Source of the DNA: Planctomycetaceae bacterium
GTDB taxonomy: Bacteria > Planctomycetota > Planctomycetia > Pirellulales > Pirellulaceae
Length of the DNA: 64,000 bases
Assembly: GCA_024642205.1 (NCBI GenBank)
Contig: JAHEBQ010000007.1
Span: 1-64,000, forward strand
Reading direction: 5' to 3'
A model generated the notes under the pieces. The model ran no database searches, was not told where the DNA came from, and saw nothing but the letters and a program-made list of their open reading frames with translations. The position numbers were made by a program, and so were the translations under genes. Shown here in pieces: positions 36,369 through 56,588 of this stretch (the stretch's first letter is position 1; every line of letters begins with the position of its first letter).

Positions 36369-38864
36369 TCACGTCCGGCGCTGAAACCCCAGTAATCGAA
36401 GAGCGTTAAGCACAACGATCACCGTCGAACCTTCGTGGAGTGCAACCGCCGGGCCCATTCGGAGTCCGAAAATCGTAGCCGGCACCAGGAACGCAACCAT
36501 GCCCAGGCTGATCCACAGGTTCTGTTTGATGATGCGATTGGTCATTCGGCTCAGTCCAATGGCAAAGGGCAAATGACGCAAATTGTCAGACATCAATGCG
36601 ACATCCGCGGTTTCCAGCGCGACATCTGACCCTGCAGCCCCCATCGCGACACCGACGTTCGCGTGTGCCATGGCGGGCGCGTCGTTGACACCATCTCCGA
36701 CCATTGCGACATCAACTTGCTGGCGGAGCCGTTGAATGGAGTCGACTTTTTCGGCTGGCATCAAATCACCCCAGGCTTCATCAATCCCAACCGCGCTTGC
36801 GACGGCATCGGCAACGCGCTGGTTGTCGCCGGAAAGCATGATGATCCGGCCGATTCCCATTTCCCGCAGCTCTCGAATTGTCTCCTGGGCTGCCTTGCGC
36901 GGCGTGTCCATCACGCCCAGCACGCCAAGGTATCGGTCGCCAACCCGGACAATCATCGTCGTGCGGCCGTCATGTTCGAGTCGATCCAACGTATCGAGAA
37001 TTTCCGCTGGAACCGGGGGGCCATCGATTTCGCCAAACAAATGCCGTTTGCCAACAAAGCTGCGGTGCCCGTCGAAGTCCGCTGAGACCCCGCGTCCCGT
37101 AATGCTGCGCAGGTTTTCTGCCGGAGAGATGTCGAGAACTCCAGTTTGATCGCCAATGGAAAGTCTCTTTTTTCCGTCACGGACAATGGCCGCGGCCAGG
37201 GGATGGTCGCTCAGACCTTCGATCGCAATCGCTGTTTTCAGCAGCTCGTCGGGGGAAGTTCCCGTTGTCGAAATGACATCGGTCAACTGGGGACGACCTT
37301 CGGTGATTGTCCCTGTTTTGTCAAATGCGATCACGCCGATGCGGCCAAGATCTTCAAGCGGTGCCCCGCCTTTGACCAGAACTCCTCCACGCGCTGCCCG
37401 CGCCACGCCGCTGAGTACGGCACTGGGCGTTGAGATTGCCAGGGCACAGGGGCTGGCTGCGACCAGGACTGCCATGGCCCGATAAAACGAGGCTGAAAAC
37501 GGTTCTTCGACCAGAAGCCACGCAAACAACAACATTCCAACGACAGCCAGGACGGCCGGAACAAAGACACGTTCGAAACTCTCCGCGAATCGTTGTTTCG
37601 ACGATTGCATCGTTTCTGCTTCGTTGACCAGCACGACGACACGAGCCAACGTCGATTCAGTTGCCAATCGGGTTACCCGGATCTCCATCGCACCGTGTTG
37701 ATTGATCGTTCCCGCAAAGACAAGATGTTCCGGCGAAATTCCGGCCTCGTTGAACGTTATCCGGTCCGGATCGTCGATTGACCGTTTGTCGACCGGCAGG
37801 CTTTCGCCGGTAATCGGTGACTGATCGACACTGCTTTCGCCTTTGATCACAAGTCCATCGGCGGCAACTCGCTCATTTGGTTTGACAATCACAATATCCC
37901 CAACGATCAGTTTGGCAACGACAACTTCCACGATCGTGTCATTTCGCCTCACCAACGCAGTCTCGGGTGCCAGGTGAGACAGGGCTTCGATCGCCCGCCG
38001 CGCCCGACCCATCGCATAATGCTCCAGGGAGTGACTGATGCTGAAAAGAAACAGTAATAATGCCCCTTCGGCAAACTGGCCCAAGACGGCTGCACCCATA
38101 GCGGCAACGATCATCAGGAAGTCAATTTCAAATTGTTTGAGACGGATTTTTTCAACCGACTCAATGAGCGTGAAGTAACCGCCAAAAAAATATGACGCCA
38201 GGTAGAGGGGCCAAACCGTCCCAATGGAAAGCTCCATCATCCTGCTCGAGATCCAGCCAGCAAGCAGGAAAACTCCACAGAGAATCGCGAATATCAATTC
38301 GGTTTGCTCGCCGAAAACCCCACCCCGTCCGTGGGCATGAACATGGGGATGTTGATCCACAGCTGGACCAACCAGCTCTGGTTCCTGATCGACCCGGAGC
38401 GCTTTCGATTGGCTTGGCAGGCGATCGGCCCTGACTCCTAACGAGGCGATTGCCGCCAAAATCGTCTCTTCATCAGAAAGTTGCCTGTCGAATTCAATTC
38501 GGATGACGCCATCGAGGGAGACGCCCACATCGATGACACCCGGTAATGCCTGAAGCCGCCCACGGATCGTACGGGTGTGGCGAACATGCATGGGCGCATT
38601 CTTGAGAAGCAAATGGCCGTAACGATGATCCAACTCGGCGCCGGCAGCGTGCACGAGTGAACGGACTTTCTGCAGGGAAATGACGTTCGGATCAAAATGC
38701 ACGCAGAATTGACCCGGTGACTCACCCTCACTGGTTCGCACGTGAGCCTTTTGAATCCCTTGATGGTCGAGGATTAAGTCACCCAGCCGTTGCGCGCAGG
38801 CATCCTGTTCGTCTGGGATCTCCGGGAGCAATAGCAAAATATCGAATCTGGCTTTTTCGGTCAT
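36369..38864 (-). CDS. P1B-type metal-exporting ATPase, P1B-4-like
   Basis: An 831-residue metal pump. The membrane ion site reads Ser471-Pro-Cys473 (SPC in place of CPC), and the C-terminal helix has HEGST (His810 onward). This pair marks the P1B-4 group, which exports Co, Zn, Cd or Fe in other bacteria. Phosphorylated Asp515 (DKTGTITEG) and GDGVNDAPAM are intact. Unlike typical P1B-4 pumps it has a long N-terminal region (about 185 residues) with two HMA-like folds lacking CxxC, then a His-rich segment DQHPHVHAHGRGG that could bind metal. It converges with ccoS, 39 bases apart. The true metal cannot be told. Confidence 0.9.
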   Translation of the reverse strand: MTEKARFDILLLLPEIPDEQDACAQRLGDLILDHQGIQKAHVRTSEGESPGQFCVHFDPNVISLQKVRSLVHAAGAELDHRYGHLLLKNAPMHVRHTRTIRGRLQALPGVIDVGVSLDGVIRIEFDRQLSDEETILAAIASLGVRADRLPSQSKALRVDQEPELVGPAVDQHPHVHAHGRGGVFGEQTELIFAILCGVFLLAGWISSRMMELSIGTVWPLYLASYFFGGYFTLIESVEKIRLKQFEIDFLMIVAAMGAAVLGQFAEGALLLFLFSISHSLEHYAMGRARRAIEALSHLAPETALVRRNDTIVEVVVAKLIVGDIVIVKPNERVAADGLVIKGESSVDQSPITGESLPVDKRSIDDPDRITFNEAGISPEHLVFAGTINQHGAMEIRVTRLATESTLARVVVLVNEAETMQSSKQRFAESFERVFVPAVLAVVGMLLFAWLLVEEPFSASFYRAMAVLVAASPCALAISTPSAVLSGVARAARGGVLVKGGAPLEDLGRIGVIAFDKTGTITEGRPQLTDVISTTGTSPDELLKTAIAIEGLSDHPLAAAIVRDGKKRLSIGDQTGVLDISPAENLRSITGRGVSADFDGHRSFVGKRHLFGEIDGPPVPAEILDTLDRLEHDGRTTMIVRVGDRYLGVLGVMDTPRKAAQETIRELREMGIGRIIMLSGDNQRVADAVASAVGIDEAWGDLMPAEKVDSIQRLRQQVDVAMVGDGVNDAPAMAHANVGVAMGAAGSDVALETADVALMSDNLRHLPFAIGLSRMTNRIIKQNLWISLGMVAFLVPATIFGLRMGPAVALHEGSTVIVVLNALRLLGFQRRT

Positions 38865-39031: not shown

Positions 39032-39982
39032 TCAACGCCCCCTTCCCTTTTTTCCTTGTCCATTGCCTTGGTTGTTGCCCGAACCCTGGGCTCGGCCATG
39101 GCCCGGCTGTGCTTGGCCGTTCCTTCGGGTCTGTCCTCGTTGTCCCTGGGCCTGGTTTCCCTTTTGTCCTTGGTTGCCTCCCCGCCCCGGTGTCGAGTTG
39201 GCGATGGCATCAAACTCCAGCTGGCTGAGTTGGGTTGAAGTATAGGTGCCTCCGGTATTGCGCAGTTGTGAGGCAAAGGCCCTGAGGTGATTTCTTGAGC
39301 CTTGTTCCAGGTGTTGGAAAACCTGTTTGATATCGTTGTTGCTCGTGGACTGGATTGCATTCCGCAAATCGGCAATGTCCATTTCCTCGATTTTCAGCCC
39401 GACCTTAAGCGCGTCGCTCAATGAGGCAGAGCCTTCATTGACCAGCGATTGGTAGAGTTGTTGAAACCTGGGTTGGGTAAATGCACCTGGAGAATTGCTG
39501 GCGACAGGATCGGGGATCTGATATCGGTTCAGCAACCCGGCAACTGCCTGCATGTGCTTTGATTCGGCTCGTGAAATGTTGGCAAAAATAGTCGCGCCCC
39601 ATTTCTGATTGAGTGCGACATAGACATCGCGAGCGAGTTTTTCTTCTTCACGCATCAACGTTAGTTCATTGCTTTCTTGCGCCGTGAGCGTTCCGCTGGA
39701 TTGCCCTCGCGCCGAGCCACCTTGGCCAACGCGATATTGTCCTGGTCCAGACCGCCCGCTCTGGTTTTGCCCTCGTCCGGCCCGGTTGCCTCCTTTTTGC
39801 AGTTGTCCGTTCTGTCCTGTCGAATTGGTGGCAGAGCTGCGACCTGCCCGGGTTTTCTGAACTGACTGGTTGTTTTGGCTGCCTGGTTGTCCCTGTCCAC
39901 GTCCGCCTCGTTGAGCCATCAGGTCGGCGCTAACGATTCCGAACAAGAGGAAGGTTACCGAAATTGTCATTAGCTTGTTCAT
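39032..39982 (-). CDS. secreted DUF2202 (ferritin-like) protein with Gly/Gln-rich tails
   Basis: 316 residues. The start at 39982 follows a purine-rich GAAGAGAGAG and gives a signal peptide ending near LMAQ. Residues about 25-105 are rich in Gly, Gln, Arg and Ser with RGG-like runs. DUF2202 follows (about 105-240): LTLMREEEKLARDVY and RAESKHMQAVAGLL hold the Glu and His residues expected for a diiron, ferritin-like four-helix bundle. The C-terminal 65 residues return to Gly/Gln/Arg-rich low-complexity sequence (GQKGNQAQGQRGQ). The domain function is unknown; iron binding is inferred from Glu/His placement. Confidence 0.85.
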   Translation of the reverse strand: MNKLMTISVTFLLFGIVSADLMAQRGGRGQGQPGSQNNQSVQKTRAGRSSATNSTGQNGQLQKGGNRAGRGQNQSGRSGPGQYRVGQGGSARGQSSGTLTAQESNELTLMREEEKLARDVYVALNQKWGATIFANISRAESKHMQAVAGLLNRYQIPDPVASNSPGAFTQPRFQQLYQSLVNEGSASLSDALKVGLKIEEMDIADLRNAIQSTSNNDIKQVFQHLEQGSRNHLRAFASQLRNTGGTYTSTQLSQLEFDAIANSTPGRGGNQGQKGNQAQGQRGQTRRNGQAQPGHGRAQGSGNNQGNGQGKKGRGR

Positions 39983-40512
39983 TGTCTCTCTCTTCTGTTC
40001 AGGTGAATCTTTGTCATGCCAGCAGTCTGTTGAGGAATCCTGGTGCGATTCCTGTTCCAAACCCTGAATTGAGCGTAGAAATATCGAAATATATCTATAT
40101 GTTTGTGTTTTTCGTGGCAGTGGGGGCGGGGAAGTCTCAGGATGTGCGAAATCGCCCGTTTTGCGTGCGGTAACGGGATTTTCTGGCTTCGGATGTTTCT
40201 TGTGTTGCGTTAGTTTGGGTGACACAAGGCGATGCCGACCGCGGTTTCAGGGAGTCGGAGCGGTCGCAGAGCGCGGAGCCAGGGCTTCCAACTTGCCTTG
40301 GAGTGGTTTGATCTGCATTCAGGCCGAGAAATATTGCTGCGGAGAATCAGACTTGATTCCCGGGAATCTTCGGGGTTTTGGTGTTCCATTCGTTGAGCTC
40401 CAAATTTGATCCGGCCGACTTGAAATCGAATGCAGGTTGCTGCCTTTGGAACACTTCTTGCTAAACTCTGTATTGAGATTTGACCGATGCGCGTTTGCAC
40501 ACAAAAGGAAAA
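39983..40512. other. divergent spacer, nothing recognised
   Basis: About 530 bases between the DUF2202 gene and the second CBS gene, which run in opposite directions, so both promoters lie here. It has an AT-rich patch at 40078-40105. No gene seen. Confidence 0.35.
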
Positions 40513-41846: not shown

Positions 41847-42458
41847 TCAGTCGTGCGGCGTGGGGACTTCAACCCAGAAGTACCCTCGCAAATCCCCTTC
41901 GGCGAAGCCGGTGGCCTGATCATCCGGGTAGTGCGAGGCGATCGCTTCCTTGACGTCGGGCATCAATTGCTCGACCGCTCCATGGCATAGCAGGCACGTT
42001 GCCTTCAGCCGAATGGGTAACAGGACTCCCAGGCCGTTTTCAGGCAGCGCGACTTCGACTTCGGTTTCCGTCTTGTCCGCAACAAATTTTGCCGCCCATT
42101 CAGGAGGGCGATTATTCGCATTGCGCAGCTTGACAGAAGTCCGACCGATACGAACGCCGGTTTCCTGCTCGACAACGGCGGCGATATCTGGAACGCGGGT
42201 CTTACAGACCGAGATCGATGTTGCCGGGCCATTGTCTGCCAGCGATTTCGTCAACTCACCCAATAATGACTGAAAAAGTCTGTCCCGTGCCACCATCGCC
42301 AGTGTTTTTTGGTTTTGTTGGACGACGGACAGGTTGGTTAGCGGGTCAGGACTGGTCTCAATCCCTCCAGTCGGTCTGGTGGGAGTTTTCTGGCAACCGG
42401 CATAGGCCAGCGGCACTGCCAATATCACTGCAAGGATAGATGTGAGTTTTCGGGGCAT
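41847..42458 (-). CDS. DUF3365 (Tll0287-like) heme-binding protein
   Basis: 203 residues. The start at 42458 has AAGGAA upstream. The N-terminus is hydrophobic with Cys22 in LAYAGC, a possible but imperfect lipobox. The body is a PAS-like DUF3365 domain. Near its end lies a c-type heme motif CLLCH (Cys155-His159), followed by the conserved DDQATGFAEGDLRGYFWVEV close of the family. Such proteins are exported redox or gas sensors, some fused to kinases elsewhere; this one stands alone. It is the second small heme protein in the window. Confidence 0.85.
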   Translation of the reverse strand: MPRKLTSILAVILAVPLAYAGCQKTPTRPTGGIETSPDPLTNLSVVQQNQKTLAMVARDRLFQSLLGELTKSLADNGPATSISVCKTRVPDIAAVVEQETGVRIGRTSVKLRNANNRPPEWAAKFVADKTETEVEVALPENGLGVLLPIRLKATCLLCHGAVEQLMPDVKEAIASHYPDDQATGFAEGDLRGYFWVEVPTPHD

Positions 42459-42703
42459 CGTTTGGTTCCTTTGTGGATCAGTTCCCAACGAGGCGGGGTT
42501 GGTTGAAAAATCATCAATTGCAAGCCGGGAGCTGCCGCTCCAGTGACAAACACTTCCATGTCACCAGGGGTTCACCGATCAATATGCCAAGTTCTATTCA
42601 GCGCTCGGCACAATTCTCCAACCGTAGTCCATTCAAACTTGCACCATGAAAGCTGCCTCCCGGGTCGCTAGCAACCCCGGATTTGAAGAGCATGGATCGC
42701 GAG

Positions 42704-43636
42704 TTACTTTGCCGGAGGCTCGTGGTTCTTTTGAGCTTCCTCAAACCCGTGGTCAACGAATCCTGACACAACCTTGGCGTGTTCCTGGATGAGTTTGACG
42801 ACATACTCGTCATCCGATGTTTCCGTCACTCGAATCCCATGTTCGGTTTTTTCAAGTTTCATCTCGATTTTATCCGTATTCTTGAAGATCTCACGATACA
42901 ACGGGTCACGCATCCGGATGGGTTGGATATTCTCGACGCGTTGGTACATGGAGGCAACGTGTTCCTGGATCTTTTCCACGATCGCCGGATCCGACGACTC
43001 GGTCAGGGTTTCGACACCATTTTTGGTTTCCTTGCGTTCCCGTTGGATTTTGTCTTTGTTGGAAAGCAGAAAATGGAACACGTCCCGGTCCTGGACGAAG
43101 TTGCTCGTCGCCGAGACATTGTCCGCCTGGTCCCCGTCGAGTTCGTTTGATTCCCCCGGTTTGGGCTCGGTTGATTGAGGATCGTCGCTGCATTTGCAAT
43201 TGGCCGAATTGCCCGAGGCACAGGCGGAGCAATCGCCGCAGCCACCGGTTTTCTTGGCAGCCAGTTCTCGAAGTTCCTCGGCGCACTTGCCGCAACAACC
43301 TTGAATCTGTGTTTTGGAATCGGTGAGTTTTGCGTTTTCGGACGCGTTTGCTTCGCACTGGCACTGGACGGTTTGGGAGGCTTCTTTGCCGGCGCAAACG
43401 GGGCAATCGCCGCAGTCTTCGCTATTGTTGTTGGCCAATGCGGCCGCCGCTGCGCACTCGGCACATTCGCCTCCCTTCTCACTGGAACAACAATCACCGG
43501 TCGCGTTCCCAACCAGGGTGGTTTCTGTCGAGGAAGAGATGAGGTTTGAGGTTTGAGTTTGGTTGCAACCGACGGAAGTCGATGCCACCAATAGCAGAAC
43601 AGCCGAAAGATGGATTGAAATTCTTGTCAACGACAT
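42704..43636 (-). CDS. cysteine-rich lipoprotein with a duplicated C-terminal module
   Basis: A 310-residue protein. The signal peptide ends in a lipobox (STSVGC), so it is probably lipid-anchored. Residues 40-165 contain 17 further Cys, mostly in CxxC pairs (ECAEC, DCGDCPVC, GCCGKC, GCGDCSAC), which looks like a metal-binding or thiol domain. The C-terminal 130 residues are two copies of a module of about 58 residues: DKIQRERKETKNGVETLTES then IVEKIQEHV, and DKIEMKLEKTEHGIRVTETS then VVKLIQEHA. The gene is 37 bases after the RND pump gene and is probably the last gene of that operon, suggesting a link to metal export or periplasmic metal capture. Family not named. Confidence 0.75.
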   Translation of the reverse strand: MSLTRISIHLSAVLLLVASTSVGCNQTQTSNLISSSTETTLVGNATGDCCSSEKGGECAECAAAAALANNNSEDCGDCPVCAGKEASQTVQCQCEANASENAKLTDSKTQIQGCCGKCAEELRELAAKKTGGCGDCSACASGNSANCKCSDDPQSTEPKPGESNELDGDQADNVSATSNFVQDRDVFHFLLSNKDKIQRERKETKNGVETLTESSDPAIVEKIQEHVASMYQRVENIQPIRMRDPLYREIFKNTDKIEMKLEKTEHGIRVTETSDDEYVVKLIQEHAKVVSGFVDHGFEEAQKNHEPPAK

Positions 43637-43673: not shown

Positions 43674-46600
43674 TCAATTCGAATTCAGAACAATGGATCC
43701 GGACGTTCCGGAGGTTCGATAGAGCATCCAATAAACCACCGGGATCACGATCAGCGTGAACAGGGTCGAGGTGAGGATTCCAAAAATAACAGCCCAGGCC
43801 AGTCCAGAGAATACAGGATCGAGTGTAATGACCCAGTTTCCCAGCAGCGTGGTTCCAGCGGTCAACAGGATGGGACGCGTACGAACGGCAACACTCCGCA
43901 CGATGGCTTCTTCCAGCGGCAGACCGTCAGCGATGCCATATTGAATAAAGTCAACAAGGACGACGGAGTTACGAACGACAATCCCTGCTAACGCAATCAT
44001 CCCGATCATGGCCGTCGCGGTGAAGAAAACCGGGTTTGCGTATCCCCCGATCAGTTCGGCTCGATCCAGGTTCAGGACCCAGAAGCCCGGCATGATGCCA
44101 ATCAACGTCAACGGAATTGCGAGCATGATGACGATCGGGAGTAGCCTGGATCCCGTCTGGAACATCAGGAGCAGGAAGATTGCAAACAAGGCCGCGGCGA
44201 ACGCAATGCCAAGATCCCGAAACACGTCAAGCGTGATTTTCCATTCGCCTTCGCCATTCCATTTGACGGAGTACTGGTCCGGAATGTTCCAGGCGACCCC
44301 GCCGCCGGGTGAGAGCCACGTTCGCTCGGAGGTGGGTCGCGACTGACCGTCAGCCACACCGTGCATGCCAGTGGAACGATCAAACTCCATGTCCATGATT
44401 GCATCGGCGGGTGGACGACCTGCGACTTCGCCGAACACATACATCACACGCTGAAGGTTTTTGCGATAGATAGTTTTGTCTTCCGTCTGTCGAACAAAAT
44501 GGCCCAATCCGCCCAACTGAACAAGCGTCCCGGATTGACCTTGAATATAGATCTCCTCCAGGTCATCAATTGCCGAACGCTCGAAACGGGGAAGCCGCAA
44601 CACGATCGGTAGGGGTGCCACTTCATGCGGATTGGACATGACCGCCGAGCGATCGCCGCCCAGTGCCATTTGAAGCGTACGGTTGATATCCTCGGTGGAG
44701 ATTCCTGAAAGCGCTGCCTTGGGTTTGTCCGTTTCGAAAACCCAACGGTCCCGGTCTGACTCCGTGCTCAAGTCGACATCGACAATTCCTGGTTCACGGG
44801 CCATCCGTGTGCCAACGATTTTCGCGGCACCAATCAAACCGTCGTAATCCACATCGGCAGGTCCGTAGATTTCCGCAGTAATTGAAGCCAGCACGGGCGG
44901 TCCGGGTGGAACTTCTACGACTTTGACCTCGGCTCCCCACCGTTCGCCGATCTCGGTCAAGCGATCACGCAGCCGCAACACAATTTCGTGTGATTGTTGC
45001 TTTCGTTTCTCTTTCGGCGCAAGATTGATGCGAAGATCGGATTGAAAGGGTTGGTTTCTCAGGAAGTAGTGGCGCACCATACCATTGAAATCCATGGGGG
45101 AGGGTTGCCCGGTAAAAACCTCGACGTCACGGACTTCGACGACACCTGACAGGAATGCCGCCATTTCGCGAGCGACATTGTCGGTTTGGTCCAGCGTCGT
45201 CGCTTCCGGCATATCGATCACGACCTGGAATTCGTTCTTGTTGTCATACGGCAACATTTTCAACGGTACCAGCCGCAGTGCCGGCAAAAACATCGCCCCA
45301 AACAGCAAGGTCGTTGTCACACCCAATGCGGCAACCGAAAGCATCGGGCTGCGCAGGATCGGTCTCAGCACTCGACTACTCAAACGGTAAAGGAAACTGT
45401 GTGTTGGGTTGAATGCCTCGCGGTTCTCGTCCTCCGTTAACAGGTATTGTAGCGACACCATGGCCAACCACGGGGTTACCAGGAATGCGACCACTGTCGA
45501 CAGCGTTACGGTCAATGGCACGTTGAGTGCCATGGGTGCCATGTAGGGTCCCATCATTCCGGTGATAAAGAACAGCGGGAGAAAGCTGACGATAATGGCC
45601 AGCGTCGACATGATCAGCGCCGGTCGTACTTCCTGGATTGCCTTCAACGTGCTGGTTCGCGCAGACGACAAACGCATCGAAAAATACCTGGCGATGTTTT
45701 CGACGTCGGTGATTGGATCGTCAACCAATAATCCCAGGGACAAAATCAAGGCAAACATCGTCACGCGGTTAATGGTGTAACCGAGGAACAGGTTCACGGC
45801 CAGCGTCAGGCTGTAACATACCGGAATTGCCAGCGCTACCACGAATGCGGCTCGCCAGCCAATGGTCAACCCGATCAAACCGACTACGGTGATAACGGCG
45901 ATGACGAGACCCTCGACCAGTTCGTTGACCTTGTCGTTGGCCGTTTCGCCGTAATCCCGGGTGATGCGGTATTGCACCCCGTGCGGCAACATCGCCTGGG
46001 AAAGCTGGTCGAGTCGCCGGTCAACCTGGTGGGCGACCGCGACAGCGTTACTTCCTTTTCGCTTGGCCACTGCGATATGAACGGCTGGATAGATGGTTTC
46101 CTTGGACGCGACCGGTTCGACAGCGTCCTGATTGGCAGGGCCAAAACTGATCCAGCTGTACCCTTCAGGCTCGGCCGGGCCATCGATAATCTGGGCGATG
46201 TCTTTCAGATAGACGGGCCGATCGTTGATGACCTGAACCACCAGGTTTTCCAGCTCGCCGACGTCGCGAAACACGGTGCCGGACTCGACGATGAACGTTT
46301 CGTTTTGCTGGTCAAATGTGCCAGCTCGGGTGTGAAGATTGCTCAGGTGAAGTGCCCGGGCCACCTGGAGCGGTGACGTGCTTCGAGAAGCCATTGCCTG
46401 CGTATCAAGTTCGACACGGATTTCCCGTTGGCGACCGCCGACGACCCAGACCCGATTCGTGTCGGGAATGGCTTGAAGTTCGTTCTGCATTTCCTGGGCG
46501 ATTCGATGAAGCTCGTGATCGCCATAGCGCTGAATGTTATCGCTCCACAGTGTCACAATCACGATGGGAACGTCGTCAATCTCGATGGGCTTGACCACCC

Positions 46601-47045
46601 AACGGCTGACGCTGGCTGGAATCTGATCCGCGTTGGAATCGACTTTGTTGTACAGTTTGACCAGGGAATCTTCCCGGTCCTCTCCCACGAAGAATCGGGC
46701 GGTGACGACCGATCGTCCGCTCTGCGACATCGAATATACGTATTCCACCCCGTCGATCTGATAAAGCAGTTTTTCCAGCGGTTGCGTCACTTGGCGTTCA
46801 ACTTCTTCCGCGGATAGCCCGGGCGCCTCGATCATGATATCCGCCATCGGGACAACGATCTGGGGTTCTTCCTCGCGTGGAGTCAGGTACATGGCGATGC
46901 CACCGATCGCCAGCGAAACAAGCGTGAACAGGATCGTGATATCACCGCGCAAAAAAGTCGCGACGACGCGGGTCAGGAAAGGAAGTTTCCCGTCATCGCC
47001 GGGTCCGGTACCCGGTGGAAGCGTCGTGGAGGAAGTGTCGTTCAA
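43674..47045 (-). CDS. RND efflux permease (AcrB/CusA superfamily)
   Basis: An 1123-residue inner-membrane pump with the standard RND plan: one N-terminal helix, a large periplasmic porter domain (residues about 60-360), helices 2-6, a second periplasmic loop (about 600-900) and a final helix bundle. The start GDITILFTLVSLAIGG and helix 4 region LGLLVDDPITDVENI are family-like; in the latter, the acidic pair DD stands in the proton-relay position. The motif FITGMMGPYMAPMA follows. Subfamily (drug or metal) cannot be decided by eye. The start overlaps the membrane fusion protein stop (ATGA). An outer-membrane channel gene is not in the window. Confidence 0.93.
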   Translation of the reverse strand: MNDTSSTTLPPGTGPGDDGKLPFLTRVVATFLRGDITILFTLVSLAIGGIAMYLTPREEEPQIVVPMADIMIEAPGLSAEEVERQVTQPLEKLLYQIDGVEYVYSMSQSGRSVVTARFFVGEDREDSLVKLYNKVDSNADQIPASVSRWVVKPIEIDDVPIVIVTLWSDNIQRYGDHELHRIAQEMQNELQAIPDTNRVWVVGGRQREIRVELDTQAMASRSTSPLQVARALHLSNLHTRAGTFDQQNETFIVESGTVFRDVGELENLVVQVINDRPVYLKDIAQIIDGPAEPEGYSWISFGPANQDAVEPVASKETIYPAVHIAVAKRKGSNAVAVAHQVDRRLDQLSQAMLPHGVQYRITRDYGETANDKVNELVEGLVIAVITVVGLIGLTIGWRAAFVVALAIPVCYSLTLAVNLFLGYTINRVTMFALILSLGLLVDDPITDVENIARYFSMRLSSARTSTLKAIQEVRPALIMSTLAIIVSFLPLFFITGMMGPYMAPMALNVPLTVTLSTVVAFLVTPWLAMVSLQYLLTEDENREAFNPTHSFLYRLSSRVLRPILRSPMLSVAALGVTTTLLFGAMFLPALRLVPLKMLPYDNKNEFQVVIDMPEATTLDQTDNVAREMAAFLSGVVEVRDVEVFTGQPSPMDFNGMVRHYFLRNQPFQSDLRINLAPKEKRKQQSHEIVLRLRDRLTEIGERWGAEVKVVEVPPGPPVLASITAEIYGPADVDYDGLIGAAKIVGTRMAREPGIVDVDLSTESDRDRWVFETDKPKAALSGISTEDINRTLQMALGGDRSAVMSNPHEVAPLPIVLRLPRFERSAIDDLEEIYIQGQSGTLVQLGGLGHFVRQTEDKTIYRKNLQRVMYVFGEVAGRPPADAIMDMEFDRSTGMHGVADGQSRPTSERTWLSPGGGVAWNIPDQYSVKWNGEGEWKITLDVFRDLGIAFAAALFAIFLLLMFQTGSRLLPIVIMLAIPLTLIGIMPGFWVLNLDRAELIGGYANPVFFTATAMIGMIALAGIVVRNSVVLVDFIQYGIADGLPLEEAIVRSVAVRTRPILLTAGTTLLGNWVITLDPVFSGLAWAVIFGILTSTLFTLIVIPVVYWMLYRTSGTSGSIVLNSN

Positions 47046-48214
47046 CGCTGACCTCCTGTCGCACGGGCATCCGGATCTTCAATGGATCGCAGTTCTGAAT
47101 TGGAATCACTGCGATTGGTATCTGTCTCCAACACCACTTTTTCGCCCGCTTCCAGTCCGCTGAGAACCTCGATACGTCCCGGCATACCCAGACGACCGGT
47201 CTTGATCAGCCGGCGCTGAAGCGAATCGTCTTCCAGGACGACATCGACGAATTCGAGCTGTCCGATTCGACGGATCGCAGCAGTTGACAGGCACAGGTGA
47301 TGACGCGAACCGGCGGGAATTCGAAGCCGACCATACATGCCTTCGTACAGGTTTCCGCTGCGCGGCAGACTGGCTTTCACCAGGAACGATCGGCTGGCGG
47401 CATCAGCCTGAGGTACGATTTCGTCAATCGTCGCAGCGAATTCCTTGTCCACCGAATCAACGTGAACCGTCAAGACCTGACCAATCTTCAATTTGACTGC
47501 CAAATGTTCCAATACTGGAGTCTCCAACCTCAGCGATTCCGAGTCGTACAGCGTCAGGATCGGCTTGCCCGGCTGCGCCATGTCACCTGGCTCCGCGGTC
47601 CGGTCGACGATTCGTCCAGATTTGGGGGCAGTGATTTTCGAGTAGGAAAGCAGTGCGTTCGCTTCATCGACCTCTTGTTCTGCCCGACGTTCATCGGCTT
47701 CGGCGACTTTGAGCTTACGGTTCGACTCCTCGTACTCGCGTTGCGAAATTGCCTGCTGCTCCCACAGTCGGCTGTTGCGCTCAAAGTCCGATTTCGCCTC
47801 CCGCGCTGCCGCCTGGCTTCCATTGAGACGTTCGTTTGCTTGCTGCAATCTGGCTTCAAGTTCTCGGGTATTGAGCGTGACCAGCAAATCGCCCGCTTTG
47901 ACAAAGTCTCCGGCAGAAACCCTGATTTCCTGTATTGTCGCCAGAATCTTGGAAGAAATGACGCTGCGACTGGCAGCTTTAAGTGTGCCGACAGTTTCCT
48001 CGATATAGTCTTTTTCTATTTCATGTACGACATCGGTTGCCTGTCCCTCGAGTTTCCGTGCGACGGGGGCAGTTTCCCCGGGTGGTATCTTGCTTACGAA
48101 AACTCCCGAAATCCAGGCGATGACCAAGGCCAGGGCTGCCAATCCCAGCAGGATGGATGCCAGCTTGGAGGCGACGCGAATCGTTTTCAGAAAGGACTTT
48201 CGGAATTTGTTCAT
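47042..48214 (-). CDS. RND periplasmic adaptor (membrane fusion protein, HlyD family)
   Basis: 390 residues. The ATG at 48214 is used; the frame extends 17 codons further. It has a single N-terminal helix (about residues 15-36), then a lipoyl half-domain (VISSKILATIQEIRVSAGD), a coiled-coil hairpin (residues about 120-200, SQAAAREAKSDFERN and RKLKVAEADERRAEQEV), the second lipoyl half (KITAPKSGRIVDRTAEPGD), and beta-barrel and proximal domains (IPAGSRHHLCLSTAAI). It links the RND pump to an outer-membrane channel. It is the first gene of the three-gene pump operon. Confidence 0.92.
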   Translation of the reverse strand: MNKFRKSFLKTIRVASKLASILLGLAALALVIAWISGVFVSKIPPGETAPVARKLEGQATDVVHEIEKDYIEETVGTLKAASRSVISSKILATIQEIRVSAGDFVKAGDLLVTLNTRELEARLQQANERLNGSQAAAREAKSDFERNSRLWEQQAISQREYEESNRKLKVAEADERRAEQEVDEANALLSYSKITAPKSGRIVDRTAEPGDMAQPGKPILTLYDSESLRLETPVLEHLAVKLKIGQVLTVHVDSVDKEFAATIDEIVPQADAASRSFLVKASLPRSGNLYEGMYGRLRIPAGSRHHLCLSTAAIRRIGQLEFVDVVLEDDSLQRRLIKTGRLGMPGRIEVLSGLEAGEKVVLETDTNRSDSNSELRSIEDPDARATGGQR

Positions 48215-48529
48215 GGCGTTAAGCGGTTGAAGTCGAGTTTGCTTGGAGTAACCTCGTTGTCCCATTCATCCCGGTCTTGAGTTGAGAAAATCGTCATTGG
48301 CGAGACGATCGTAGTAGCAGGTGGTGTCTCTCATCTTGCCTTTCTTCCAACGCTTATCCGACAACCCTGGTAAGTCTCTCCGTGGTTCATTAAACGTGAA
48401 TTCACGGTTGCATCAGTCACGAAGGCTTGAATCATCCCGATGGATCGAGTGCGGGGCTGCAGCGGGATCCGATGAGTCCGACTCTTTTTTCCTGTCAACC
48501 GAACTCGGTCGATGGCAAGCGCCACTCAT
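48215..48529. other. spacer upstream of the pump operon
   Basis: About 315 bases, the likely promoter region for the pump operon and the 3-prime region of the small membrane gene. No gene or clear operator recognised. Confidence 0.3.
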
Positions 48530-48619
48530 TCAGGTTTGAACCCCAAACCGTGGAAGGATCCACATTTGAAGTACGATCCAGATGACGAGAAATCCAAAAA
48601 TCAAAAGTATATCAGTCAT
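48530..48619 (-). CDS. very small membrane protein, 29 aa
   Basis: An ORF of 29 codons plus stop. It encodes a single helix (MTDILLIFGFLVIWIVLQM) and a short basic tail ending PRFGVQT. Composition is what a real single-pass peptide would have: hydrophobic core with Trp near the end, then Pro-Arg. It lies 268 bases downstream of the two YeeE/YedE genes on the same strand. From memory, such single-helix peptides with a Pro-Arg-x-Gly-Val end occur near YeeE/YedE genes elsewhere, but I cannot check this here. The ribosome site is weak. It is listed because position and composition agree. Confidence 0.5.
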   Translation of the reverse strand: MTDILLIFGFLVIWIVLQMWILPRFGVQT

Positions 48620-48887
48620 GATTGTGTACCTGTTTGCCGACATGTCTGTTCAAGGGTAAATCGTTGATTGATTCCTGATCCTGGAGAACCCCAGCTTGAG
48701 TTTCTTGTTTCCTCTCTCAGGGTCAGTCCGACGGTTGGACCAACGAAGCTTGGTCCTCGGTCAATGGTTCGAAAGTCCTGCTGCCAGGAGCTCAATTATC
48801 CAGGCTGGAAGTCTCATGGAAGCACTCGAATGGAGATTGATATTCTCAACGGGTTGTTGTGCCCGAAGGCGCTGAATCAGGGCCGGC

Positions 48888-49385
48888 TTAAAACGGCAGT
48901 TTCGATTTCACGTTTGCATACAGGAACATTCCAAGCAACGCCCCCGCCAGGGTGACCAAAGCCATCCAGGCACCGCCGCCGATTTGAGCATAAATCGGTC
49001 CCGGGCAGGCACCGGTGATGGCCCATCCGGCCCCGAACATGGTTCCGCCAATCACGACGCCTTTGTGAAACGGTTTGGGCTGATAAACGATGGGTTCGCC
49101 TTCGATGGTTTTGACCTGCATGGATTTGATCAGTAGCATTGACACCATGGCGACGCCGATACCCACCCCGATGATCAGATACATGTGAAGCTCCCGGAAC
49201 ATGAACATGTCATGGACGCGTTGCCATCGGACGACTTCGGATTTCGTCAATACGATCCCGAAATAAACGCCGACCAACAGCGACATGGTCAGCGCGAGCG
49301 CCGAAATGCTTTTTTGTTTGCTGGCCGATTCGCGATTAGCCGGTGCAGCGTCGTTGTTGTCTGTTGTTTTGGTTTTGATAGTCAT
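48888..49385 (-). CDS. YeeE/YedE family sulfur-transport membrane protein (second half)
   Basis: 165 residues. The start at 49385 is used; the long upstream frame overlaps the neighbour in another frame and is Arg-rich shadow. It has four to five helices. FHKGVVIGGTMFGAGWAITGACPGPIYAQIGGG (motif split: GGTMFGAGWAITGACPGP) is the family Cys motif (Gly-Ala-Cys-Pro-Gly), which in characterised homologues lines a thiosulfate path. It is the partner of the gene just upstream, with a 14-base gap, as in many bacteria where the channel is split in two half-size proteins. Confidence 0.88.
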   Translation of the reverse strand: MTIKTKTTDNNDAAPANRESASKQKSISALALTMSLLVGVYFGIVLTKSEVVRWQRVHDMFMFRELHMYLIIGVGIGVAMVSMLLIKSMQVKTIEGEPIVYQPKPFHKGVVIGGTMFGAGWAITGACPGPIYAQIGGGAWMALVTLAGALLGMFLYANVKSKLPF

Positions 49386-49399
49386 GTCTGGTATCGAAG

Positions 49400-49885
49400 T
49401 TAAAAAATGAATCGTCCGAGGCCCCAGGTTACGCCCAATCCGCCGACAAAAAAGAAAATCGTCGCGACCAGGCTGGGCCAGTTCAGGTTGGCGATTCCCG
49501 TAATCGCATGACCGGAAGTGCAACCGCCGGCGTAGCGAGTACCGAAACCAATCAGAATTCCCCCTGCCAGCAAGCGAACGGCGCCACCCAGGCTCAGATA
49601 GGACTCGGGCAAAAACTCGATCGACTGGGCGGACAAGTACCGGGTGGCAATGAAACCACCGATGACGATTCCCAGCGCGAACATCACGGTCCACATGCCC
49701 GTGCGCTTGTCGAATTTGCTGAAGTAGGAAAGTTTGCTACCAGGAGAACACATGGCTCCGATCTGCTGTAAGCTCGTGGAAATACCGAAGCCCTGTCCGG
49801 TCAGAAAGTAAAGCAGTGGAACTGTCAGACCGACCAGGATTCCCGAAAACCACCAAGGCCAGGGTTGCATGATGAAGTCAACCAT
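49400..49885 (-). CDS. YeeE/YedE family sulfur-transport membrane protein (first half)
   Basis: 161 residues with about five helices. GFGTRYAGGCTSGHAITGI near residue 113 is the family signature; the Cys in GGCTSGH is the conserved thiol. The first half also has QIGAMCSPGSK with another Cys. Together with the downstream partner it would form a channel for thiosulfate or another reduced sulfur species. The start overlaps the end of the unknown gene upstream by about eight bases, indicating one operon under the ArsR regulator. Confidence 0.88.
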   Translation of the reverse strand: MVDFIMQPWPWWFSGILVGLTVPLLYFLTGQGFGISTSLQQIGAMCSPGSKLSYFSKFDKRTGMWTVMFALGIVIGGFIATRYLSAQSIEFLPESYLSLGGAVRLLAGGILIGFGTRYAGGCTSGHAITGIANLNWPSLVATIFFFVGGLGVTWGLGRFIF

Positions 49886-50348
49886 TTATTTTTCCTTCCC
49901 ACGGTTTGAGATTTAGTACGTCTGCAAATTCCTGGTTGCCAATTGAATACACACCTCGGTTGTTCGATCTCATTGAGCCGGATTGGCTGGCAAAAAGACA
50001 ATTCCAGTCAACTGGCCCGTTTTCGGAAGCTATTGACCCCGTCTCTACCCCCTGTGCGGGTTCGCTCGCTTTGGAAACACGCTTGGCGGGGAACCGCGTT
50101 GCAGTAACGAAGAACAACCTCAGGCTTTCCTGTTTTGCGTCGATGAAGGACGGCTGGCGATCGCCAGCCGAATCAACGATTCGTGCGACTTCCTTGTTTT
50201 GGCCGCGGATCAGGTTCAAGTCATGGTTCGGAAATTTGTCGCCCATGTCACTGAAAAACACCGCGTCAGCGCTCGGGACGCTTGGCCAGTTGTGAACATC
50301 GAACGCCAGTTGATGTGCGCGATGATTGGAATACGCTGATATTTTCAT
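49878..50348 (-). CDS. hypothetical protein within the ArsR-YeeE operon, 156 aa
   Basis: I do not recognise it. The ATG at 50348 has AGAGGA nine bases upstream. There is no signal peptide or membrane helix. Visible parts are an N-terminal stretch with several Asp/His (HQLAFDVHNWPS, FFSDMGDKFPNHD), a strand SLRLFFVTATRF, and a Ser/Asn-rich region with one Cys (VDWNCLFASQSGS) before a C-terminal GNQEFADVLNLKPWEG. It lies between arsR (31-base gap) and the first YeeE gene (overlapping), so it is likely co-regulated. Composition is normal. A role in sulfur chemistry is only suggested by position. Confidence 0.6.
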   Translation of the reverse strand: MKISAYSNHRAHQLAFDVHNWPSVPSADAVFFSDMGDKFPNHDLNLIRGQNKEVARIVDSAGDRQPSFIDAKQESLRLFFVTATRFPAKRVSKASEPAQGVETGSIASENGPVDWNCLFASQSGSMRSNNRGVYSIGNQEFADVLNLKPWEGKING

Positions 50349-50379
50349 CAATAATCCTCTACTCTTGCGATCTCGCGCC

Positions 50380-50688
50380 TCACCCAAACCGATTTTGAAT
50401 ACAGGTCATGATGTCGTGCAAATGTTGTTCCAGAATCTCGTAGTAGACAGTGCGTCCGTCGCGTCGACTGGTCAGGAATCCGCAACGCTGCATCAAGCGG
50501 AGATGATCTGATGTGGTGGGTTGCGTGAGCTTGCAGGCTTCCGCCAGCTCATTGACGGAAAAACGTTCGCCGGTCATTAACATCTGTACGATCTGCAACC
50601 GACTGGGGTGTGCCAGTGCCTTAAGGCATTCGGCAGCCTGCGAAAGGCCCGCGAAATCCAGCTGTTTGACGTTTCGTTTTTTGTTCAT
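50380..50688 (-). CDS. ArsR-family transcriptional repressor
   Basis: A 102-residue winged-helix regulator. Family motifs: LKALAHPSRLQIVQML (helix 1-2), NELAEACKLTQPTTSDHL (recognition helix), and LRLMQRCGFLTSRRDGRTVYYEI (wing). Four Cys are at 21, 52, 69 and 96. The typical metal box CVC of ArsR/SmtB in helix 3 is absent. The paired Cys of BigR/SqrR persulfide sensors are not at the expected places, so the signal cannot be assigned from sequence. It starts the cassette with YeeE/YedE and is divergent from the methyltransferase fusion. AAGGAGAG is a strong ribosome site. Confidence 0.9.
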   Translation of the reverse strand: MNKKRNVKQLDFAGLSQAAECLKALAHPSRLQIVQMLMTGERFSVNELAEACKLTQPTTSDHLRLMQRCGFLTSRRDGRTVYYEILEQHLHDIMTCIQNRFG

Positions 50689-50836
50689 GGGCTCTCCTTC
50701 CGGTTTAATATATCGTCAAATGTCAATATGTAAATAATAAAGTTTGTAAAATATGTGAAAATGGCTTTCCACCGGGAGCTTTTTCCCTAAACTGAACGAG
50801 AATCTCCGTTTCGATATCCCTTGTTCTGGTGCATGA
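50689..50836. promoter_or_regulatory. divergent promoter and likely ArsR operator region
   Basis: This 148-base space between divergent genes is strikingly AT-rich at 50703-50760 compared with its neighbours. It contains ATATCGTCAAATGTCAATAT (50709-50728), an imperfect inverted element, and TTGACA on the minus strand near 50718-50723, a possible -35. ArsR-family regulators usually bind AT-rich dyads overlapping their own promoter, so this is the likely operator for both directions. Exact bases are a guess. Confidence 0.4.
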
Positions 50837-52045
50837 ATGATGAATTGGCGTACCTTGGCTTTGTTGGTCCTGTTGACGTTTTCGTGTTTGAATTCTGGCC
50901 TGTTCGCCCAGGTGATTGACGAACCGTCGGTCGATCCGACCGTTCAACCGATTCAGTCGGCCGAGATCGGTACGGCAAAAAATGTTCATCATAACGGGGA
51001 CCTCTATTTCTCCGGCCAGTTTGCACCGGATGATGTCGCCGAATTACGCGAGCGAAACGTCGCTCGGGTGATTACCCTGCGAACGGACGGCGAAGTCGAA
51101 TGGGATGAGAAAAAGGCGCTTGAAGATGCCGGGATTGAGTTCATCCAGATTCCGTTCCGGCTCCCCGAGTCGTTAACGGACGAAGTGTTTGACCAGGTTC
51201 GAACGGCTTTGAGTGATCAAACAAAAAAGACCCTGTTTCATTGCGGCTCGGCCAATCGTGTCGGAGGCGCATGGTTGCCTTATCGTGTCCTCGATCAACA
51301 CGTCGAACTTGAAAAGGCGCTTTCAGAAGCAAAAGAAATTGGACTCAAGACACCGTTCATCGAAGAAAAGGCTCTGGACTACATTGCGCGCAAGCGGGCC
51401 AAGCCGGCCGTCGCAGGCGAGAAAAGTGTCAAACCCGGAATCAACAAGAGTTTTGTCGACCCGGAACTGGATGTTGACGCCTATGTCAAAAGATTTGAAA
51501 TCGAAAGCCGAGAGGTTTATGTCACCCGTGAGAAGATCATTGCCGCTTGCGGTATCCGCAAAGGGGATGTCGTGGCCGATGTCGGCGCCGGAACCGGTTT
51601 ATTCACGCGAATGTTCTCGTCGGGAGTGGGCGAAACAGGTTGGGTCTATGCCGTCGATATCGCGCCCCGGTTTATCGAGCACATCAATCAGGAGGCCAGC
51701 AAGCAGCGGCTGAGCAATATCACCGGAGTAGTGTGTGCAGAAAACAGCGTCAACCTGCCTCCGAAGTCAGTCGACGTCGTGTTTGTGTGTGACACCTACC
51801 ATCATTTCGAGTATCCCCAATCGACATTGGAGTCGATTCACCGGGCCCTCAAAGACGAAGGCCACTTGATCGTTATCGACTTTGATCGGATTCCCGGCGA
51901 ATCACGAGAGTGGCTAATCGGTCATGTTCGGGCTGGCAAAGAAGTATTCCGTGCCGAAATCATGGATGCCGGTTTCAGTTTGGCCGATGAGCCGAACATT
52001 GAAGGATTCAAGGAAAATTACTTCTTGAAATTTCGCAAGAATTGA
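50837..52045 (+). CDS. exported fusion of a DUF442-like (protein tyrosine phosphatase-type) domain and a SAM methyltransferase
   Basis: 402 residues. Signal peptide at 1-25 (ALLVLLTFSCLNSGLFAQ). Residues about 45-165 match the DUF442/BLH phosphatase-like fold: GDLYFSGQFAPDDVAELR, then HCGSANR with Cys136 and Arg141 forming a Cx5R site, then VGGAWLPYR. Residues about 210-400 are a class I methyltransferase: ADVGAGTGLF (SAM loop, Gly250 to Gly254), YAVDIAPRFIEH, VVFVCDTYHHFE and GHLIVIDFDRIPGE. The two domains are usually separate; DUF442 occurs with ArsR/BigR and YeeE genes in sulfur loci. It may act on thiol or sulfide species outside the cytoplasm, but SAM supply there is a problem. Divergent from arsR. 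Confidence 0.82.
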   Translation: MMNWRTLALLVLLTFSCLNSGLFAQVIDEPSVDPTVQPIQSAEIGTAKNVHHNGDLYFSGQFAPDDVAELRERNVARVITLRTDGEVEWDEKKALEDAGIEFIQIPFRLPESLTDEVFDQVRTALSDQTKKTLFHCGSANRVGGAWLPYRVLDQHVELEKALSEAKEIGLKTPFIEEKALDYIARKRAKPAVAGEKSVKPGINKSFVDPELDVDAYVKRFEIESREVYVTREKIIAACGIRKGDVVADVGAGTGLFTRMFSSGVGETGWVYAVDIAPRFIEHINQEASKQRLSNITGVVCAENSVNLPPKSVDVVFVCDTYHHFEYPQSTLESIHRALKDEGHLIVIDFDRIPGESREWLIGHVRAGKEVFRAEIMDAGFSLADEPNIEGFKENYFLKFRKN

Positions 52046-55997: not shown

Positions 55998-56588
55998 ATG
56001 ACTTCGGATCAACTATTTCGAATCTGGATTCTGGTAACCATGGTTGCGAGTTTTGCGATCAGCATCTATTTTCGGCATCAAGCCAACAAGCACGGAGGGC
56101 AGTTGGATCCATCGGGAAACCGAGTGTTGCTGTTCTTAAGATTGGCTGCGCTGATTGTCCTGGTGCCGTTGATTGGCTTTCTGGTCGATACAGACTCGAT
56201 GGGTTGGGCTCGCTATCGGTCACCGCTGTGGTTGCGTTGGATTGGGTTTGCGATCACAACGACGTCCATCCCGGGGCTTTACTGGCTGTTTTCGACGATT
56301 GGAAACAACATCAGTCCCACCCATTTAACGCGGGACGACCACAGGCTGATTACCGACGGTCCGTACCGATTGATTCGGCATCCCTTGTACATGGTTGGTT
56401 TTGCGTTCTATTTTGGGGTCGGGTTAATGGCAAACATGTGGTGGTTATTGGTTGGACTTACCGTTTTGATGTTAGTGCTCCATAGGCGCACCGCCATCGA
56501 AGAAGAAAACCTGATGCGGAAGTTTGGCGCAGAATACCGGGCCTACGTGGAGCGCACCGGCCGCTATCTACCCAAGTTGTTTCGATAG
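55998..56588 (+). CDS. isoprenylcysteine/phospholipid methyltransferase-like membrane protein
   Basis: 196 residues, four to five helices. The C-terminal half has the ICMT/PEMT-type signature: DHRLITDGPYRLIRHPLYMVG (motif split: GPYRLIRHPLYMVG) followed by a helix and EEENLMRKFGAEYRAYVERTGRYLP, whose core EEENLMRKFG and YVERTGRYLP bind SAM and close the fold. Substrates in bacteria are usually phospholipids, other lipids or small molecules; protein isoprenylation is not expected here. The ATG at 55998 has a weak GGCAGG site. It converges tightly with the GNAT gene. Confidence 0.88.
   Translation: MTSDQLFRIWILVTMVASFAISIYFRHQANKHGGQLDPSGNRVLLFLRLAALIVLVPLIGFLVDTDSMGWARYRSPLWLRWIGFAITTTSIPGLYWLFSTIGNNISPTHLTRDDHRLITDGPYRLIRHPLYMVGFAFYFGVGLMANMWWLLVGLTVLMLVLHRRTAIEEENLMRKFGAEYRAYVERTGRYLPKLFR

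Follow-up and report, generated by a model that had tools for sequence, protein, structure and literature searches.

Among known systems, the BigR operons come closest to the locus reported here, known as bigR-blh in Xylella and Agrobacterium and, in A. baumannii, as yeeE-yedE-pdo2 with an ArsR repressor (PMC7315123); BigR binds the -10 region of its own operon (PMC5823870, PMC7315123). Passages of PMC12423496 place sqr, pdo, rhodanese, RND, TauE and PmpAB genes in the neighbourhoods of the regulators SqrR, SoxR, sHdrR, YgaV and HlyU. Here we describe a related locus in Planctomycetaceae bacterium (assembly GCA_024642205.1, genome 6.8 Mb). The stretch analysed, hereafter the window, covers 64 kb (positions 1 to 64,000) of contig JAHEBQ010000007.1 (C151) and holds, at 50837-52045 on the plus strand, a gene for a 402-residue protein that joins a DUF442-type domain to a methyltransferase (MT) behind an exported-type N-terminus, divergent from an ArsR-YeeE/YedE cassette. 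Our favoured reading, to which we assign a probability of about 0.55, is that the locus is an ArsR-controlled island for sulfane sulfur, in which an exported enzyme receives sulfide or persulfide from a sulfur carrier and methylates it on sulfur.

Every gene named in an initial annotation of this DNA was recovered as an open frame at its place in the window. Leftwards of the divergent fusion, all on the minus strand, these are an ArsR-family regulator of 102 aa (50380-50688), a 156-residue frame (49878-50348), two YeeE/YedE half-channels (49400-49885 and 48888-49385) and a small membrane peptide (48530-48643, 37 aa, or 29 aa from an inner ATG, 48530-48619). The likeness to the BigR operons lies in the ArsR repressor and a persulfide dioxygenase (PDO) and, for A. 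baumannii, also in YeeE/YedE. In contrast, the window has other regulator cysteines, only a piece of a PDO, and a putatively exported DUF442-methyltransferase and RND pump adjoining. Blh, a DUF442-ETHE1 sulfurtransferase/dioxygenase, shares the DUF442-type domain and its CX4R loop, whereas the window's DUF442 part is joined to an S-adenosylmethionine (SAM) methyltransferase rather than to a dioxygenase and has an export-like N-terminus.

The regulator was confirmed as a winged-helix member of the ArsR family (HTH_5 and HTH_20 in Pfam) and scores 56 bits against the NCBIfam BigR equivalog NF040642, below its curated cut-off of 155. Among 198 genomes searched in the class, 93 have its planctomycete subfamily (E <= 1e-25). 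For 40 of these 93 genomes, spanning 37 genera, the best match was taken with up to 7.5 kb per side, so that the loci were chosen by ArsR alone. At 37 of the 40 loci at least one gene for a rhodanese, CoADR-like protein, PDO, TauE or SQR lies within ~7.5 kb, compared with 0 of 20 control loci, which held none of the neighbour families save the methyltransferase used to fetch them. The commonest neighbours are rhodaneses (33 loci), followed by CoADR-like proteins (17), PDO (15), TauE (11), DsrE (9), a domain that we call 'mc' (7), SQR (6), the MT (5), exported-rhodanese-like proteins (4), P-type ATPases (2) and YeeE (1); in these counts, as in those at the MT and pump loci below, only families from sulfur operons and from the window were sought. 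Operator and sulfur genes are both missing at L291 and L296; L265 keeps a PDO, but its operator-like site has three mismatches; and L293 has only 'mc' and DsrE. The sulfur-stress regulon suggested in the initial annotation is borne out by these neighbourhoods, and we regard it as very probable.

A putative operator, ATATCG-N8-CGATAT, is present with at most two mismatches at 37 of the 40 loci. Other spacers of 4-12 bases in place of eight were matched at 0-10 of the 40 loci and scrambled half-sites at five and none. In an earlier set of 30 ArsR upstream regions the site was found at the same threshold in 28 (27 of 29 distinct regions, as L102 duplicates L031), against 19 of 311 control frames, which may include frames beside or antisense to ArsR. 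The window's copy (ATATCGTCAAATGTCAATAT, 50710-50729) has one mismatch and sits between the -35-like and -10-like hexamers of a promoter-like site for ArsR (TTTACA / 16 nt / TATATT, 50707-50734, minus strand) recognised by its match to the consensus. Because the window holds two sites at up to two mismatches and 1.62 are expected by chance, the case for this operator rests on its position beside ArsR and its conservation. Elsewhere in the genome a second ArsR, 69% identical, heads a PDO-TauE-SulP-DUF1641-SQR series and is preceded by the genome's only perfect site. At up to one mismatch the genome has 24 sites, against one for a reversed-pattern control; most of the 18 inspected (15 in L070-L084, two in the window and one in L086) fall within open frames, and a motif match by itself is therefore not specific. 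As a separate observation, an arsenic-type-looking ArsR in L077 (contig C40 of G000) is followed by ArsD/ArsA-like genes, as judged by eye, and is accompanied by two sites resembling the operator.

The regulator also has a cysteine pattern of its own. Cys21 and Cys96 are each conserved at 40 of the 40 loci, Cys52 at 39 and Cys69 at 38. HlyU C38 is equivalent to BigR C42 according to PMC5823870, and the residue that aligns with this alpha-2 cysteine in HlyU and YgaV is Gln35 in the planctomycete protein (40/40), consistent with the prediction that the regulator lacks the BigR layout. SqrR, SoxR, sHdrR, YgaV and HlyU resemble it in gene neighbourhood, with sulfur-oxidation neighbours at 37 of the 40 planctomycete loci, and differ in sharing two conserved cysteines of which the first is Gln35 here. 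For the comparison of Cys96 with BigR C108, the printed alignments stop before the second cysteine of the known proteins. Independently of what the enzyme does, this is an ArsR subfamily with a defined operator and a non-BigR/SqrR cysteine set, which makes sulfane-sulfur sensing in Planctomycetes directly testable.

The fusion protein consists of a hydrophobic N-terminal segment (residues ~1-24), the DUF442 part (~51-188) and the MT (~213-401). Its AlphaFold2 model (mean pLDDT 92.4, pTM 0.64) has two folded domains and an N-terminal helix at 4-23; given the pTM, the arrangement of the domains is unsure. In the N-terminal half, the profile BLH_phosphatase (DUF442, PF04273) gives E 1e-4 and 23.0 bits, under the curated cut-off of 26.1, and the loop HCGSANR with Cys136 has the C....R form of a DUF442-type CX4R loop (CGSANR), in support of the DUF442-like assignment of the initial annotation. 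Compared with the phosphatase loop of SsoPTP, the best PDB match, it lacks one residue, which argues for sulfur transfer over phosphatase activity. It fits the six-residue loop of a characterised DUF442 domain, CRTGTR (PMC8533005), and passages of PMC8533005 and PMC5823870 describe known DUF442 domains as forming a Cys persulfide from thiosulfate or reacting with glutathione persulfide (GSSH) via such a six-residue, Arg-ending loop. The C-terminal half matches Methyltransf_11/31 in Pfam, contains the GxGxG motif of class I SAM methyltransferases (GAGTG), and has a CDTYHHF motif (Cys318) that is invariant in 16 aligned MT rows. A hydrophobic N-terminal segment was found in 95 of 106 MT proteins and in 1 of 106 internal stretches; together with the helix at 4-23 this agrees with the proposed export signal, and the protein is probably exported.

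Within the genus, a match covering both domains was found in 16 of the 28 genomes (own included; one is cut at a contig end), a recurrence beyond chance. Among 32 genomes outside the genus, G035 matches the fusion in two pieces of one frame, and the fusion also occurs in L105, L106, L107, L115 and L120, outside the genus set. Across 107 MT rows, 21 carry an N-terminal DUF442, six a C-terminal DsrE, four a C-terminal rhodanese and one a C-terminal 'mc' domain, and 75 are unfused. Pfam, run on ten fusion proteins, confirmed DsrE (PF02635) in 4/4 and rhodanese (PF00581) in 3/3 above cut-off. The motifs of the carrier domains are kept: the C....R loop in 21/21 DUF442 rows (window included) and 4/4 rhodanese rows. 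The six DsrE rows all show CGQA when the alignment is read directly (an automated pattern caught five). A quick, midpoint-rooted tree, which left out L102 as a duplicate and L045, L122 and L068 (short), separates the DUF442 fusions from those with DsrE or rhodanese (split support 81%); the fusion label changes 12 times, where shuffled labels give a mean of 30. The fusions differ both in partner and in the end to which it is attached, and at least three fusion origins are therefore likely; the midpoint root and weak branches (45 of 104 inner branches below 80% support) give no firm count of events for any one type. The initial annotation had a DUF442 protein gaining a methyltransferase; with the same caution about weak branches, the tree is easier to read as an old exported methyltransferase that may have gained sulfur domains several times.

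The flanks tie part of this family to sulfur operons. Taking ~7 kb per side for the G genomes and controls and up to 10 kb for named contigs, with many flanks cut by contig ends and with L102, L067, L068, L045, L122 and the window left out, we found PDO, SQR or ArsR beside 10 of 20 DUF442 fusions, 5 of 6 DsrE fusions and the single 'mc' fusion, compared with 0 of 20 paralogous methyltransferases of related genomes. Some MT orthologues close ArsR-rhodanese-PDO-TauE-SQR operons; in G302 the protein at the end of such an operon has 545 residues and joins MT, 'mc' and DsrE. Conversely, the sample of 40 loci picked by ArsR alone contains the MT five times, once within a single protein of the order MT-'mc'-DsrE. 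At L128 the MT is unfused, and by eye the same operon has separate exported-looking DsrE-like and rhodanese-like genes; NCBIfam gave no name to the exported DsrE-like protein of this locus. A reference-free clustering of neighbours within 5 kb (90 of 109 loci, with L031 and L102 counted twice) gave, besides same-genus synteny clusters, a loosely linked unnamed group as its largest cluster (13 loci), then PDO (10), ArsR (9), a permease (9), rhodanese (7), TauE (6) and SQR-like proteins (5). Neighbours were also read by eye for 36 of the 80 named loci.

The 156-residue frame, which had been called an unknown protein, is better described as a diverged piece or remnant of a PDO. It has no match in Pfam or NCBIfam. 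Its residues ~37-140 match the N-terminal part of four PDOs without gaps (BLAST E 4e-9 to 3e-6); the matched proteins combine an MBL fold with a rhodanese, as checked by Pfam for two. The metal-binding HIHAD motif is replaced, and the codon-position base composition is coding-like but weak. Relatives occur in 23 of 100 genomes of the family (own included; two of the 100 belong to the same genus), and the listed matches other than its own are in open frames of 479-819 aa. The frame also stands in the PDO's place. Same-genus genomes read ArsR-PDO-YeeE-YedE, which supports the placing of the half-channels in an ArsR operon. The first half-channel gene, YeeE1, is present in 18 of 28 genomes of the genus; after two of the 17 other regions (L206, L217) were set aside as cut at contig ends, a PDO directly adjoins YeeE1 in 13 of 15, while L203 and L216 read ArsR-YeeE-YedE without PDO. 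G014 shows the layout of the window with an intact PDO: the fusion, a divergent ArsR, the PDO and a YeeE1 of which the initial 37-38 residues (92-95% identical) are present before the contig ends.

The annotation had expected the five genes to be conserved as neighbours. What is kept is two units, ArsR-fusion (9/14) and PDO-YeeE1 (13/15); the full set is not, as fusion and YeeE cassette occur together only in the window and in G014, as far as its contig runs. The half-channels themselves both match Sulf_transp in Pfam, at positions 172-308 (PmpA-like, 49400-49885, the C-terminal half of Sulf_transp/TsuA) and 10-104 (PmpB-like with DUF6691, 48888-49385, the N-terminal half) of PF04143. PmpA and PmpB are two short proteins corresponding to two halves of TsuA/YeeE (PMC11582611), a design that the window shares.

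MddM2/MddH, MddA, TMT1A/B and TPMT are S-methyltransferases for H2S, MeSH or persulfides. Methylation of sulfide, methanethiol and persulfide by SAM methyltransferases is established elsewhere (PMC12904073, PMC13089183): TPMT methylates persulfides (PMC13089183), and MddM2, which belongs to the UbiE family and has a predicted Sec signal, methylates H2S and MeSH, with sulfide detoxification as its proposed role (PMC12904073). We liken the fusion to MddM2 by this description (predicted Sec signal, UbiE family), not by sequence; the passages of PMC12904073 mention no sulfur-carrier fusion, and 'planctomycet' is absent from its main text. The ArsR-PDO-YeeE cassette is of a known kind; as far as our searches show, the novelty lies in an exported methyltransferase whose sulfur-carrier domains are exchangeable and in the cysteine set of the ArsR. 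Among titles and abstract openings of the open-access literature we found no description of the fusion or of the planctomycete ArsR subfamily.

From gene content and domain architecture we infer the following scheme, including the ligand, the direction of transport, the place of the reaction and the part of the pump. ArsR would bind ATATCG-N8-CGATAT in its own promoter and, where adjacent, in the shared divergent gap, and would be released when reactive sulfur modifies Cys21 and Cys96, perhaps Cys52 and Cys69. The PmpA/PmpB-type half-channels would carry sulfur-containing ions through the inner membrane. The DUF442 domain of the exported enzyme would take up sulfane sulfur as a Cys136 persulfide through its rhodanese-type CX4R loop and hand the persulfide, or sulfide freed from it, to the methyltransferase, which would S-methylate it to less reactive methanethiol, dimethyl sulfide or methyl persulfide; in relatives, DsrE or rhodanese would be the carrier in place of DUF442. 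The neighbouring RND pump could expel the methylated product. That the fusion methylates sulfur at all seems to us somewhat more plausible than otherwise, from the fusion and its context. The wider proposal is tentative: planctomycetes would dispose of sulfide in the envelope by means of an exported S-methyltransferase that was joined on separate occasions to DUF442, to DsrE and to rhodanese. Outside the cytoplasm this enzyme would methylate sulfur, whether bound to the carrier or released, and yield methanethiol, dimethyl sulfide or methyl persulfides; part of the system would answer to a class-wide ArsR sensor whose cysteine set is new. If true, reactive sulfur would be removed non-oxidatively and extracytoplasmically, Planctomycetes could be a source of methylated sulfur compounds, and the question would arise of how SAM gets to an exported enzyme.

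Several observations weigh against this scheme. SAM is not known to be available outside the cytoplasm. Profile scores for DUF442 and for the named methyltransferase families are below curated cut-offs. The operator motif is not confined to the ArsR promoter, as 12 of the 40 ArsR loci also have a site at up to two mismatches in the 280 bases downstream of ArsR. In the direction of the fusion no promoter-like site was found. Control of the fusion by ArsR, as had been proposed, is not general: a divergent ArsR adjoins in 9 of 14 same-genus loci (two of the 16 lie at contig ends with no upstream room), but the operator at up to two mismatches is found before 0 of 12 fusions without an adjoining ArsR, including G024, whose contig ends 158 bp upstream, and the ArsR-fusion gap of G003 has only a site with four mismatches. 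PDO, SQR or ArsR is absent from the flanks of 10 of 20 DUF442 fusions, all four rhodanese fusions and 71 of 74 unfused orthologues (present in 3), and one of the ten DUF442 positives (G027) depends on an SQR-like gene of 28% identity ~6 kb away. These counts connect some of the fused members, but not the family as a whole, with sulfur operons. Loci L147-L181 include Proteobacteria, several with names of sulfur oxidisers (Thiohalophilus, Thiohalocapsa, Thiobacillus, Lamprocystis); the only reference sulfur genes found near their MT copies are two frames in L167 (Thiobacillus), one PDO-like at 30% and one CoADR-like, and a TauE-like frame at 26% in L168. DUF442 proteins without a methyltransferase have, by eye, no evident sulfur neighbours at 7 of 8 loci, and the RND pump is linked to sulfur genes at 3 of 20 pump loci and to the MT at two.

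Such counts leave room for an enzyme with another substrate: the sulfur regulon would be real, while the substrate of the exported methyltransferase would be an envelope lipid, a quinone, a peptide or a small molecule and the sulfur-type domains would serve redox control or protein repair. The unfused orthologues without sulfur neighbours, an amino-acid-type permease adjoining the MT by eye at nine loci, the existence of DUF442 without a methyltransferase elsewhere, and a best solved match, 3dh0, named just 'SAM dependent methyltransferase', all favour it. We nevertheless consider it unlikely, since three sulfur-carrier folds are joined to one enzyme, at either end and with their cysteines kept, and the MT appears in 5 of 40 operons picked by ArsR alone. 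A metal or metalloid response, in which ArsR would govern a P-type ATPase and an ArsM-like methyltransferase, would account for the gene that follows ArsR at the nine same-genus ArsR-fusion loci, a P-type ATPase in six (the other three being G014 with PDO, the window with its PDO piece and G020 with neither), for a second operator-like site upstream of the window's DUF2202 and P-type ATPase genes, and for weak matches to arsenite methyltransferase models. Those ArsM matches are far under cut-off (best 43.5 vs 263 bits), the 40 ArsR loci have sulfur genes at 37 and a P-type ATPase at 2, and the ArsR paralogue of the same genome heads a PDO-SQR operon, which makes this explanation improbable. 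We think it still more improbable that the locus is decaying, an operon that lost PDO and SulP with the remainder on its way out. Relatives keep PDO, L202 and L214 keep SulP besides it, and the 156-residue frame is only 24-35% identical to PDO-type frames; against decay, this frame is open across 156 codons, YeeE1 is 63-85% identical to full-length same-genus copies, the fusion is open and 66% identical to that of G014, and a full PDO-SQR operon stands elsewhere in the genome. The reading as a sulfane-sulfur island with an S-methylating enzyme is the one that we prefer.

Left of the small peptide, still on the minus strand, lie an RND efflux adaptor (47042-48265), an RND efflux pump (43674-47045), a Cys-rich 'mc' protein with an export signal as judged by eye (42704-43636) and a Tll0287/DUF3365-like protein (41847-42488). 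The pump and the 'mc' protein, like the adaptor, are possible members of the island. Of 146 genomes searched in the order, 28 have a pump orthologue at E <= 1e-100, the window's own genome among them. Two of 20 pump loci, L240 and L251, have the gene order ArsR-rhodanese-...-adaptor-pump and a perfect operator. PDO, TauE and DsrE lie near the pump of L255, and at the remaining 17 loci no ArsR, rhodanese, PDO, SQR or TauE was found. The pump is also present at the MT loci L107 and L132, and no operator was found before the adaptor in the window. The C-terminal ~130-residue domain of the 'mc' protein has no Pfam match above cut-off. It recurs in ArsR sulfur operons, at 7 of the 40 ArsR loci and at none of the 20 control loci, either by itself or joined to MT, DsrE or both; it is joined to the methyltransferase in G050 and G302. 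Besides the window copy, the places where it was noted are L282:1114-2751, L062:6938-8089, L266, L269, L275, L290, L293 and L294.

The small membrane peptide is real but thinly supported: a relative was found in one of the 17 other YeeE regions (G027, 59% identity), at the operon end after SulP. A 56% relative of the window's Tll0287/DUF3365-like protein (L205:2095-2715) closes an ArsR-PDO-YeeE-YeeE-TauE-DUF1641-SQR operon in G025. The second operator-like site (ATATCGAAATATATCTATAT, 40081-40100), a weak candidate by motif match, lies upstream of the DUF2202 gene (39032-39988, minus strand), with the P-type ATPase (36369-38864, minus strand) farther downstream; relatives of this ATPase directly follow ArsR in six same-genus genomes. 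At the nine permease loci (L046, L108, L110, L121, L131 and others) the permease looks APC-type and the MT is unfused. In L049, L050 and L051 we noted exported-looking DUF442 proteins in which a C-terminal extension of ~130 residues replaces the methyltransferase, in a similar neighbourhood in the three genomes. By eye, an integral-membrane protein at 55998-56588 of the window, 4 kb from the fusion, resembles the isoprenylcysteine-methyltransferase/MddA type, and a similar-looking protein lies near the fusion in L031 (550-1017).

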